Positions 21,454 to 38,047 of a stretch of DNA of 64,000 nt are shown one piece after another. A program made the position numbers and the translations under genes. Below the pieces are notes generated by a model. It saw only the letters and a program-made list of their open reading frames with translations. It ran no database searches and was not told where the DNA came from. The DNA comes from Halichondria panicea (Eukaryota; Porifera; Demospongiae; Suberitida; Halichondriidae): contig NC_087388.1 in NCBI RefSeq assembly GCF_963675165.1, forward strand, positions 812,800 to 876,799, written 5' to 3'. Each line of letters starts with the position of its first letter. Positions within the stretch are counted from its first letter, which is position 1.

Positions 21454-34292
<12,839 letters not shown>

Positions 34293-34556
34293 CCAGAAAC
34301 TAAACTCTTTAATTAGCTATTATGACCTAAATTAATTAAGACTCCCTGTTATAATAATACAATACATGCATGTATCGATTATTATGTTTTCATTTACTGC
34401 AGAAGTGTCTTCTTGTTTTAATTCCTGTTTAACGTATTATTATTATACAGTTATTAGAATGGATTGCATTTCTAATCCCATCATTATAATTATTCGTCAA
34501 TTAATAATGGATAATAACAACACTGTATATGCAATGCAAGCAAGTGCTCTTCACAG

Positions 34557-34628
34557 AATGCCACAAACATCCACTCTCTGGCCTCAAGGTATAACTTGAA
34601 TTAACCAGAGAGCTTCAAAACGGCCATT
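34557..34628 (-). promoter_or_regulatory. Candidate SECIS element, 3' UTR of the MsrA gene
   Basis: On the minus strand, about 130 nt after the MsrA stop, a 72-nt hairpin has the eukaryotic SECIS plan. The lower stem is AATGGCC/GGCATT (one bulge). An internal loop leads to a non-canonical pair set TGA (5') and GA (3'). The upper stem GCTCTCTGG/CCAGAGAGT is nine pairs including one G-U. An unpaired AA follows 12 nt after the TGA (GGTTAA), and a small top stem TCAAG/CTTGA gives a type-2 form. The base before TGA is T rather than the usual A (or G), a departure from consensus. Its position and the in-frame TGA upstream support the reading. Confidence 0.72.
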
Positions 34629-34758
34629 ACAAAGTAAAGAAACACACACTATAAGAGCCAGTTAGAGCTATAAAACAAATAATCGGTGAATAACAGGACA
34701 TGTAATAAAATAAAACGTGATGCAGCTTCTATAATATAATATTTTAGAGTTTTGAGTT

Positions 34759-36584
34759 TCACCAGCCGGATCCACGTCCGACCAGGCTTTTCACACGCTC
34801 TTGTAGCTTAGTGGAGAGATTAAACGATGGCATCTCCTTTTCCAGGGCCTCGAGGCTACCATGACCACCTACGTAGCCATTGAGACGGGTGGCAATGTGT
34901 GAGGTGATGATCTCCTTGTCTGACAGCCCCAGGGCATCACAGACGTCCCTCTGTTGACGCAGGAGGTACTTCTGGTGATAGCTGCAGGGAGTGGGAAATA
35001 CAGTCATGAAGACAGGAAAGGAGACAATTCAACCCTAAATGTTTGCAGACACGTATGCAGTAGCTTATGCCAACACACTGCAAGCAGGCTAATTGTATTT
35101 ACTTCCTGAGGTGATTCATGCATGTGCCAACCACATGTTAATTAGAGTGTGAATTCATCACAATGCGTGTGTACACAGAGGCCAGGACAAATATAGCAGG
35201 AAATAGCAACCACACTATGACCTCTTAGGAAGGTTAGCAACCACACTATGACCTTTTAGGGATCAATACAGGAAGGTAGCTAGGTCACACAACAGACTGA
35301 CACACACAGTTAGTTAAGGCTGTTATAGAGTAATCACCAAACTAGAGGGGGGAGCAGACAGACTCAGCTGGCTTACCCTTTGGCAACAATAAACTACATA
35401 CCCAGGTAGATGAGTAACAAAAACATTCAATACTATTATAATAATTATGATACCACATTGCAAATGTTTCCCCAGCAACAAGCAACAATGCATAATAAGT
35501 AAAAGCAAACACTTAATGCACTCAGCATTAGTAATAACACAGACTAGATTCTGGGAAGTTATTCACAAATTATAGCTACAATGCACACACACAGCTCAGC
35601 TTAGTACACTCTCTGTGTGTGTGTGTGTATAGTATTAGCATGACCGTTGACTTACTTCTCAGCATCGTAGAATGTCTCTGCCTCTGCGATTTTTGTCACT
35701 ATCTTCTTGCTCGCAGTCTTCTGTCTCTCATCTCTTGTCTCTTCGGCCAATCGCTTCTGCTCGTCACCGTGATAAAAGATGGCTGACATGTACTGCCTCG
35801 AGGCACAACGCGTGGAGTCGTGGTTTTGCCAGAACAATTTGAGCATCTCCGAGTAAGTTGTGACCTTGGGGTCGTACTCAATCTGCATGCTCTCTGTGTG
35901 GTCCCCACTGAGGGAGAAATGTTTGCCAAAACTGTCAACAAAAGCACACAGTTAGGCTAATTACAGTTACAGTAAATTACTTCACCATACGGGCAAGGAT
36001 GTTCTATTTTCCATCCTCCAACTCTACACCCAAATGTGCATATAATTACAGCCTAACACGTGGTAAACTAGGCCTCCAAGGTGGTTAACCATGTCCCTGC
36101 ACACTGTTAATAAATATATATGCTAGCTAAATGAGATTTTGGTGCACTAGTACAAGCTATGTACCTACAAGAATTAAGACAACAGTATACTTATTTACAG
36201 CGTTTTCTTCAAAGCCAGGTATTAAAATGTACCAGTAAAATCAACAGAGCATAGCAAATACATCACGGCTAGCTAGCTAGCTTGCACTTACAGACTGTGA
36301 TACGTCGGTCCTCGTTTCTTCCCCCCAGTAAATCCCACCTTGGTCCTCAGAACCCCCGGGGCACTCCCAAACTGTGCCTCGGGGAACCAGAATCAGCTCA
36401 TCGCAAAGGTGGCTGTCTCGAAGGGAGCATTAGCACTGGCTGCAGGGGTGTCTGTGAGAGTTATCTCATTGGTCTTCTGTGTAATCTCTGTCAGTGGGTC
36501 AGTGGTAGTCATCTCTGGTTCTTGGCTCGTTTCTGCTGGCTTGCTCTTGGGACCTCTTTTGAATAAACGGCGTAATACAGACAT
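34759..36584 (-). CDS. MSRA: Peptide methionine sulfoxide reductase A, selenocysteine form
   Basis: Three minus-strand exons, 36292-36584, 35656-35907 and 34759-34981; 255 residues if the TGA at 36393-36395 is read as Sec. The MsrA catalytic motif GCFWGPE appears as M-S-(TGA)-F-W-F-P-E-A-Q-F-G, with the TGA exactly at the nucleophile (residue 64). Frame and similarity continue on both sides: TKVGFTGG, MQIEYDPKVTTYSEML, KLFWQNHDSTRC, QYMSAIFYHG and AENYHQKYL are all MsrA landmarks. The C-terminus is extended (RLNGYVGGHGSLEALE), as in some non-vertebrate MsrA. The enzyme reduces methionine-S-sulfoxide; Sec normally raises the rate of the first step. A SECIS candidate lies in the 3' UTR. The N-terminal ~60 residues are a poorly conserved Ser/Thr-rich extension. 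The start is 204 bp from the next gene's start. Confidence 0.9.
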
Positions 36585-36787
36585 TGTGTAGATTTAGCCT
36601 TATACAGTCTTTATTGGCAGTGTATAAGATAACTATATTTATAATTACACTGTTTCTTTGTCAGCTATTTTTTTGTCACATGGTCAGCTCGTCACTTTGT
36701 TGCATAGCTACGAGCCCCTCCCCCCTGTCTTTGTGGTCATTATTTTGGTAAAGGCCTCCACGTGGCCCAGAATATTATAAGAGAAAG
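36585..36787. promoter_or_regulatory. Bidirectional promoter region, MsrA / nucleoside-hydrolase-like gene
   Basis: 203 bp between divergent start codons. It includes a CCACGTGG E-box-like palindrome near 36760. Confidence 0.45.
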
Positions 36788-38047
36788 ATGTCCACTCTCA
36801 CTGAGCTGTTTGTACCTGCTTTTGTCACCATCTGCTGCATCCTTGTATCTCTACTGCTGTTGATCTACAAGTGCAAGTCTAGAAAATCTCATAAAACATT
36901 TCTCCTGTTCATCGATGGCCCTGATCCTGACAATCCAGCGTGTGCTCTTGCTCTGTGGAACCATCTTGTAGCCTCTCAAGTACTATCCCCTCATCTTCAT
37001 ATCATCCTCACTGGAAGACCGGTGGATCTGAAAACTAAAAAACAAGTTAAAAGCGATATTCCAATCAAGGAGCAAATACCGAGACAGGATTGGGAACAAA
37101 CGAATGCAGTTCACGCTCGTAAATTATTATCCGACTCGGCAGCTAGGATAAACAATTATCTTATATCATGTGGTCTCAGTTCAAGCTCGTTCACTATCTA
37201 CAATGGCGGGATTGCATTATACGCCCCTATATCTGATGTAGCGCATGATTGGGAATTCCTGTACGACAGGACAGACTTGATTACTGGAGTCTCATCTGAT
37301 GCAGGTACTATCATTTCTGTAGAAGAATACGCATCCCTCATCCAAAAATACAATTCTTTGACTGATGATGATCGAGGAACAACATTAATGTCGTTGCTAA
37401 GGAATTATGAGATGGTGCCATTGTCTCAACTAAGAGTGACTCTTAAACAGACTCAGCATACGGAGCTAAGTGTGTTTCTCGGAGGACCAGCTACTGCAGT
37501 GGTGCGTTTGTTTGAAGGGGACCAGAATAATTCACTTCGCACTAAAGTTGTCGAGTTGTTTGCAATGTTTGGAGCTTTGATGCCGGAGAAAAGCACACTC
37601 CTTGGCAACCAGTTCAATGCAGCGTGTGATATGGAGTCTGCAGCTCAACTGTTTATGGAGAAGATGTTTCCCAACGTTCCAATGTACATTATTCCCACGG
37701 AGACGGCCAAATTACCTGAGCTAATAGTATCTGCAGGTGAGTTAGAGTCACGAGGTGCTCATTCGTATGCTGTTAGCCTGATCAAACTCTGGGAGTCAAC
37801 TCACAATGATTGCCCTCAGCCTATCTTTGATGTTCTACCAGTAATGGCTGCCGTGCCAGAGTTTAAAAAGGCATTCATTTGGAGAAAGAAAAAAGTGGTC
37901 ATTCAAGAATGGATCAAAGATGGAGAGGTCAGACAAAAGTTTATTTTTACCGATACAGACCATGGCTTAATTTATGTGTCAGATGGTACATTTAATTTGA
38001 GTAAAGAATGTTTTTTACAATTCCTTGATTCCTGTTTTAGAGCATAA
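36788..38047 (+). CDS. Nucleoside hydrolase-like protein, membrane-anchored, intronless
   Basis: One exon, 419 residues. The N-terminus is a signal anchor (VPAFVTICCILVSLLLLIY, residues ~9-27) followed by basic residues. The body then starts with FLLFIDGPDPDNPACALALW, a form of the Asp-rich N-terminal motif of inosine/uridine-preferring nucleoside hydrolases (usually DTDPGxDDAxAL). Later landmarks are LGGPATAVVRLF and GNQFNAACDMESAAQLF, the latter like the family's N-x3-D-x2-AA calcium/ribose segment. The first motif is altered, so catalysis is uncertain. The lack of introns among intron-rich neighbours suggests a retrocopy or horizontal origin. A sugar-nucleoside hydrolase or a derived binding protein are the main options. 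Confidence 0.7.
   Translation: MSTLTELFVPAFVTICCILVSLLLLIYKCKSRKSHKTFLLFIDGPDPDNPACALALWNHLVASQVLSPHLHIILTGRPVDLKTKKQVKSDIPIKEQIPRQDWEQTNAVHARKLLSDSAARINNYLISCGLSSSSFTIYNGGIALYAPISDVAHDWEFLYDRTDLITGVSSDAGTIISVEEYASLIQKYNSLTDDDRGTTLMSLLRNYEMVPLSQLRVTLKQTQHTELSVFLGGPATAVVRLFEGDQNNSLRTKVVELFAMFGALMPEKSTLLGNQFNAACDMESAAQLFMEKMFPNVPMYIIPTETAKLPELIVSAGELESRGAHSYAVSLIKLWESTHNDCPQPIFDVLPVMAAVPEFKKAFIWRKKKVVIQEWIKDGEVRQKFIFTDTDHGLIYVSDGTFNLSKECFLQFLDSCFRA

Follow-up and report, generated by a model that had tools for sequence, protein, structure and literature searches.

Does the sponge Halichondria panicea make a methionine sulfoxide reductase A (MsrA) with selenocysteine (Sec) at its catalytic site, and which signals in the mRNA would serve such a protein? 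The question is raised by a 64,000-nucleotide stretch of contig NC_087388.1 (hereafter the window), in which an MsrA gene on the minus strand carries a TGA where the catalytic Cys of the family belongs and is followed by a hairpin with the plan of a SECIS. A preliminary description of the window had drawn attention to both; the TGA that ends the gene, and the run-on to Ser-Lys-Leu behind it, had been overlooked. Here we give an account of the gene, its hairpin, the selenoprotein genes found elsewhere in the genome, and the two UGA codons of the predicted mRNA.

The MsrA gene and its catalytic codon

The gene consists of three exons between 36584 and 34759 on the minus strand. Reading of the spliced frame showed that the GT-AG joins keep the frame, giving a coding sequence of 768 nt (255 residues and a stop) whose sole internal in-frame stop is the TGA at codon 64. 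The features, in window coordinates, are as follows.

36292-36584, minus strand: exon 1, from the ATG to a GT donor, 97 complete codons plus 2 nt; contains the predicted Sec codon, and the PF01625 match begins here
36393-36395, minus strand: in-frame TGA, codon 64, at the catalytic Cys position, in the context S-U-F-W-F-P-E-A-Q-F-G
35656-35907, minus strand: exon 2, catalytic domain, with active-site residues E103, Q136 and Y137
34759-34981, minus strand: exon 3, with H184 and Y187, the C-terminal helical domain PF20939 and the terminal TGA
34759-34761, minus strand: terminal stop TGA of MsrA; of the 12 selenoprotein genes to which a SECIS was assigned, no other ends in UGA
34744-34758, minus strand: candidate readthrough or second-Sec extension N-S-K-L, closed by TAA and ending in the prototype of the peroxisomal PTS1, SKL
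34557-34628, minus strand: form-2 SECIS element, with the TTGA core at 34618-34615, helix II at 34613-34603 and 34583-34573, the AA at 34602-34601 and the 3' GA at 34571-34570
34417-34422, minus strand: ATTAAA downstream of the SECIS, a candidate variant poly(A) signal

The most probable start of exon 2 is 35907, behind the acceptor TTTCTCCCTCAG; this start was preferred because it produces the family sequence TYHSLGDHTES, as in solved relatives. An acceptor 24 nt upstream was rejected, since it would add eight residues (FGKHFSLS) that are missing from those relatives. No AATAAA was found within 558 nt of the MsrA stop.

The predicted protein matches the catalytic domain PF01625 (PMSR) with 142.2 bits and PF20939, named 'Selenoprotein methionine sulfoxide reductase A, helical domain' (MsrA_helical), with 41.1 bits, each against a Pfam cut-off of 23.7. 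In the whole genome PF01625 has two matches only, both of them exons of this gene. Among 30 PDB sequences retrieved by sequence search, the top six cover both domains (E 6.2e-47 to 1.7e-45), and the best of them (E 6.2e-47) is aligned over residues 52-249, with codon 64 falling on its residue 16; the solved structures of such relatives also supply the fold. We take these six to be the MsrA of Clostridium (Alkaliphilus) oremlandii (PDB 4lwj, 4u66), the numbering of which matches that of PMC4333827. The active-site residues named there outside the GCFWG motif (Tyr47, Glu55, Gln89, Tyr90, His137 and Tyr140; PMC4333827) are all present in the alignment, as Y95, E103, Q136, Y137, H184 and Y187. For the C. 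oremlandii enzyme the helical domain is described as essential and the Sec form as 20-fold more active than the Cys form (PMC4333827). The preliminary description had placed the TGA at the catalytic Cys of MsrA with family similarity continuing behind it, and both statements hold: the similarity runs on from codon 64 through all three exons.

It had further asked whether TGA and Cys codons alternate at this site among relatives, and in prokaryotic DNA they do. Of 531 prokaryotic relatives the best 80 were taken, and in 75 of these the catalytic codon could be read (5 were unreadable; the motif allowed for a stop or for any of C, W, S, T, A and G): it was TGA in 65, TGT in 9 and TGC in 1. The DNA evidence for alternation is prokaryotic, and animals are represented by protein records that are truncated or bear W. 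In the 120 protein relatives listed of 298, the Sec column holds W in 44, C in 11, I in 1 and no residue in 64; the W of the 44 metagenome relatives is probably TGA translated by code 4. The nearest named relative among the same 120 is from Amphimedon queenslandica; this partial record is 69% identical over 74% of the query, and its first residue is the one directly after the Sec. The introns of the gene and this relative point to a sponge and probably to a demosponge. No MsrA relatives were found among viral contigs.

Cys132 (35807-35805) sits in the active-site loop T-x-C-x-x-Q-Y; of the 14 eukaryotic or metagenome relatives aligned, 12 share it, as do 34 of 120 among the matches listed, and it is absent from C. 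oremlandii MsrA. This Cys might resolve the selenenic acid.

At the other end of the protein, the basic N-terminus M-S-V-L-R-R-L-F-K-R-G (36584-36552) is like those of two protein relatives (P0006 and P0022), and this segment is a possible targeting or membrane-binding peptide. Head-to-head with MsrA, on the plus strand at 36788-38044, lies an uninterrupted frame for a 419-residue nucleoside-hydrolase-like protein with an N-terminal hydrophobic stretch; PF01156 is found on most of its relatives listed, and the closest records are 100% and 90% identical. Tail to tail with MsrA, the plus strand carries at about 34128-34289 an open frame that looks like the C-terminus of MCM4.

The hairpin and the selenoprotein genes of the genome

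The UUGA core of the hairpin begins 140 nt past the MsrA stop, a position compatible with location in the 3' UTR. The TGA of the 5' core (34617-34615) and the 3' GA flank the helix as the GA/GA quartet requires. Helix II has 11 register pairs by descriptor, three of them G-U, and 10 of these are present in the minimum free energy (MFE) fold; the unpaired AA stands 12 nt after the TGA of the core, with a small top stem above. The SECIS plan noted in the preliminary description is thereby upheld, with two corrections: its 9-bp stem comprises 10-11 pairs when G-U pairs are counted, and its distance of 130 nt past the stop is that of the hairpin base and not of the core.

The hairpin has an MFE of -25.9 kcal/mol (z -2.88), and 3 of 200 shuffles fold equally well. 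An ungapped SECIS descriptor gave two matches in 128 kb (both strands), with 1.275 expected per 64-kb strand and 0.025 at the score of the MsrA hairpin, as estimated from 40 Markov shuffles. With an energy descriptor, five matches were obtained on both strands of the 64-kb window, of which the MsrA hairpin was the best (-17.2 against -9.3 kcal/mol for the next). When the 500 nt after the MsrA stop were dinucleotide-shuffled, none of 5000 sequences reached -17.2 and 59 reached -8 kcal/mol.

An Rfam scan of 34300-36700 at E up to 10 did not call the hairpin, and it was not listed in a whole-genome search with RF00031 at the same limit, nor does it reach the SECIS_1 gathering score. The base before its UGA is U, in place of the A (rarely G) of the canonical core. 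Because the GA/GA quartet, and not this base, was taken as defining, the hairpin is filed as a variant form-2 SECIS.

The genome (131 Mb, 39 contigs) was searched for the machinery of Sec synthesis and for further selenoproteins. A tRNA-Sec gene was found with 73.4 bits and was typed as SeC by ARAGORN; of the nine matches in the family search four exceed the cut-off, this gene and three that ARAGORN types as tRNA-Ser. SepSecS is matched in six pieces. The selD match, in two pieces, is below the cut-off, and the same search also yields sub-cut-off matches in 14 of 14 control genomes; from an upstream UGCK motif and a downstream SECIS it would be SPS2, an assignment more weakly supported than tRNA-Sec and SepSecS.

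Pfam and NCBIfam searches combined with frame reading revealed at least 14 Sec-type genes besides MsrA: GPx, a SelW/MIEN1-like gene, Sep15, SPS2, two SelL-like genes (UxxU), an AhpC-like gene (UxxC), two SelU-like genes, two thioredoxin reductases (GCUG and ACUG), two SelR genes and SelO (TUSS). The names presumably apply, having been given from family matches and characteristic motifs. The list was built from partial gene models, and the last exons of the SelW-like gene and of SPS2 were assigned by resemblance. PF13911 has matches in three of the genes, namely the SelL genes on C9 and C16 (UxxU) and the sponge AhpC-like gene on C15 (UxxC), whose SECIS elements lie 48-51 nt after the stop. Three protein records of the SelL UxxU kind (P0121-P0123) end exactly ahead of the first UGA. 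The AhpC-like Sec proteins have been termed sponge-specific (PMC3473315).

A SECIS was assigned to 11 of these 14 genes, making 12 with MsrA. The GPx element was located through Rfam and by eye and was missed by the descriptors, which supplied the others. A position after the stop was demanded for assignment because the descriptors also yield decoys; matches inside coding sequence, elsewhere or on the opposite strand were not taken as SECIS. Within the stretch around Sep15, the SelU-like gene on C3 (RRFGU) and the SelR gene on C17 (RFU), the descriptors found no convincing SECIS, and the elements of these three genes may be of another shape or lie farther away.

In the 12 assigned elements the base before UGA is U in five (MsrA, SelW-like, AhpC-like and both thioredoxin reductases), A in five (GPx, SPS2, SelL on C16, SelR on C11 and SelO), G in one (SelL on C9) and C in one (SelU on C2). 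The published core rule is worded as 'always AU (rarely GU)' (PMC11227280), and for Amphimedon GUGA is given in 12 of 21 SECIS (PMC3473315). The TTGA core of MsrA, which the preliminary description had called unusual, is thus unusual against the literature and common within its own genome, where five of 12 share it. A literature search at listing level found no report of a selenoprotein SECIS with a UUGA core; three of the papers listed contain TTGA somewhere in their text, and the Amphimedon elements drawn in the supplement of PMC3473315 may include some. RF00031, searched against the genome at E up to 10, hits three places (after GPx, the AhpC-like gene on C15 and SelO), none above the gathering score; it lists three of the 12 assigned elements and misses eight of the 11 that do not belong to MsrA. 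A MAFFT alignment of the SECIS of the genome misaligned their 3' arms. Six of the 12 elements, with U or C, break the AUGA/GUGA rule on which searches lean; because half of the cores break the rule and Rfam lists only 3 of 12, selenoproteins of such animals may be missed.

Two other readings of codon 64 have to be weighed against Sec. The gene might be a Cys-type MsrA spoiled by a nonsense mutation or a sequencing error, and indeed TGC or TGT is a single base change from TGA and the genome holds no PF01625 match outside this gene. Against such a pseudogene, TGA is the commonest codon in the readable prokaryotic relatives, nothing else interrupts the 255-codon frame, a statistically strong SECIS lies downstream and the genome contains other Sec-type genes with SECIS; we regard it as highly improbable. 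It is just as hard to believe that the TGA is read as Trp or Arg, by a general code change or by plain readthrough. The W in the column of 44 of the 120 listed metagenome-type protein relatives would speak for this, but catalysis requires Cys or Sec at the position, which is established Msr chemistry (PMC4333827), no further internal TGA occurs in the MsrA frame, and a tRNA-Sec is encoded in the genome. What tells against Sec itself is the UUGA core, which is off the AU/GU rule, and the silence of the Rfam SECIS models. The earlier proposal that this animal makes a Sec MsrA is nevertheless supported by the alternation of codons, the tRNA-Sec and SepSecS genes and the hairpin statistics, and on this sequence evidence the gene almost certainly encodes a selenoprotein methionine-S-sulfoxide reductase A of the two-domain type, with Sec at codon 64 inserted by way of the form-2 SECIS.

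In such a protein, the ribosome would decode the UGA of codon 64 as Sec, the SECIS in the 3' UTR bringing SBP2 and eEFSec with the Sec-tRNA. The selenol would then attack methionine sulfoxide, whereupon methionine would be released, and a glutaredoxin or thioredoxin pathway, perhaps with Cys132 as intermediary, would reduce the selenenic acid.

The terminal UGA and a possible Ser-Lys-Leu extension

MsrA is the only one of the 12 genes to end in TGA, the other 11 ending in TAA (8) or TAG (3). Past this UGA the frame continues with N, S, K and L and closes with TAA, so that an extended product would end in SKL, the prototype PTS1 (PMC4207609). In the window and the 11 other loci, with MsrA counted, SKL ends 3 of 4358 stop-to-stop stretches that start with TGA and 3 of 11793 of any start; the PTS1 consensus [SAC][KRH][LM] ends 13 of the 4358.

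The distance from stop to SECIS core also sets the gene apart. In the eight other genes with Sec far upstream the gaps are 48, 51, 51, 51, 59, 65, 75 and 84 nt, whereas in the three genes with C-terminal Sec they are 101, 123 and, for SelO, 182 nt. These three are the longest of the eleven, which is one of 165 arrangements; the long SelO gap was forecast before its value was seen, the search for SelO having first been meant to enlarge the SECIS sample. The MsrA gap, despite an upstream Sec, falls in the C-terminal-Sec range (101-182) and not in the upstream-Sec range (48-84). A minimum of 51 nt for Sec insertion has been reported, with a UGA nearer the SECIS not recoded (PMC3737529), so that a long gap is understandable in a gene that has to have a UGA near its end decoded. 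Gaps of 138 and 124 nt are given for the thioredoxin reductases of Euplotes (PMC3737529). The gap of MsrA possibly groups it with genes whose last UGA is meant for reading.

As a complement to Sec at codon 64, and not a replacement for it, the terminal UGA might sometimes be recoded. Either Sec-tRNA, directed by the SECIS that serves codon 64, or ordinary readthrough would then yield an isoform of 260 residues that ends in U/X-N-S-K-L and is imported into peroxisomes; we consider this possible and somewhat unlikely. It is favoured by the terminal UGA that none of the 11 other selenoprotein genes shares, by the rarity of SKL extensions, by a gap like those of the C-terminal-Sec genes, among which the SelO value had been forecast, and by the 51-nt minimum and the Euplotes distances (PMC3737529). 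In eukaryotes every UGA in frame may be open to the action of a SECIS (PMC8704476), and LDHB and MDH1 are known to gain a PTS1 when their UGA is read through (PMC4207609). On the other side, the pattern was spotted post hoc and in one species, and the stop is followed by AAC (UGA AAC), whereas the known genes with high readthrough have UGA CU. The proteins of aligned relatives also end at this position, and the terminal UGA is taken to serve as an ordinary stop because they do. None of the 120 relatives listed of 298 ends in SKL, and one (P0059, CRM) ends in a tripeptide of the PTS1 consensus. Some SECIS, moreover, are position-restricted, human TR1 being described as confining Sec insertion to its natural position or the close vicinity (PMC3737529, PMC8704476).

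A fuller proposal, which in our opinion is doubtful, has one SECIS serving two UGAs. Codon 64 would give the catalytic Sec, and the terminal UGA would be a selenium-dependent switch: when it too is read as Sec, Ser-Lys-Leu would be uncovered and a share of the enzyme would go to peroxisomes. All this would take place in a genome that accepts whichever base precedes UGA in the SECIS core. If it were true, the terminal UGA would be a dual-use stop and Sec codon that sorts a protein between compartments, and if the second UGA were recoded, peroxisomal targeting would be governed by the supply of selenium. A literature search at listing level found no report of Sec used for peroxisomal targeting.

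Comparison with known systems

In comparison with eukaryotic form-2 SECIS (RF00031 and the literature), the MsrA element shares the GA/GA quartet, a helix II of 10-11 pairs, the AA bulge at 12 nt, the small top stem and the position 3' of the stop; it differs in the U before its UGA, where A (rarely G) is usual, and in having no Rfam call.

MsrA is listed among the selenoproteins of Amphimedon, Trichoplax, Nematostella, Capitella and Branchiostoma, with both Sec and Cys forms in invertebrates (PMC3473315); the preliminary description was right in attributing Sec-MsrA to 'a few animals', five genera being named in that source. Because a sponge Sec-MsrA has already been published (PMC3473315), that of H. 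panicea is not new in kind. It lengthens the published list of animal Sec-MsrAs, and the SECIS core result matters more. With the metazoan Sec-MsrAs it has in common the Sec at the catalytic site, and with the Amphimedon record the identity given above; the UUGA core and the terminal UGA followed by NSKL and a stop are features of the H. panicea gene that may set it apart.

Like the 1-Cys selenoprotein MsrA of C. oremlandii, the sponge protein combines a catalytic with a helical domain, retains the active-site residues and is predicted to have Sec for Cys. It reads SUFWF and not GUFWG, has 51 residues ahead of the aligned part and contains two more Cys (132 and 196) where the bacterial enzyme has none, and its SECIS is eukaryotic, not bacterial.

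The possible extended isoform would resemble the readthrough isoforms of MDH1 and LDHB (PMC4207609) in its UGA stop, short extension and C-terminal PTS1, and would differ from them in its stop context, AAC against CU. Because the mRNA of MsrA is a selenoprotein mRNA with a SECIS, the residue inserted at its terminal UGA could be Sec.
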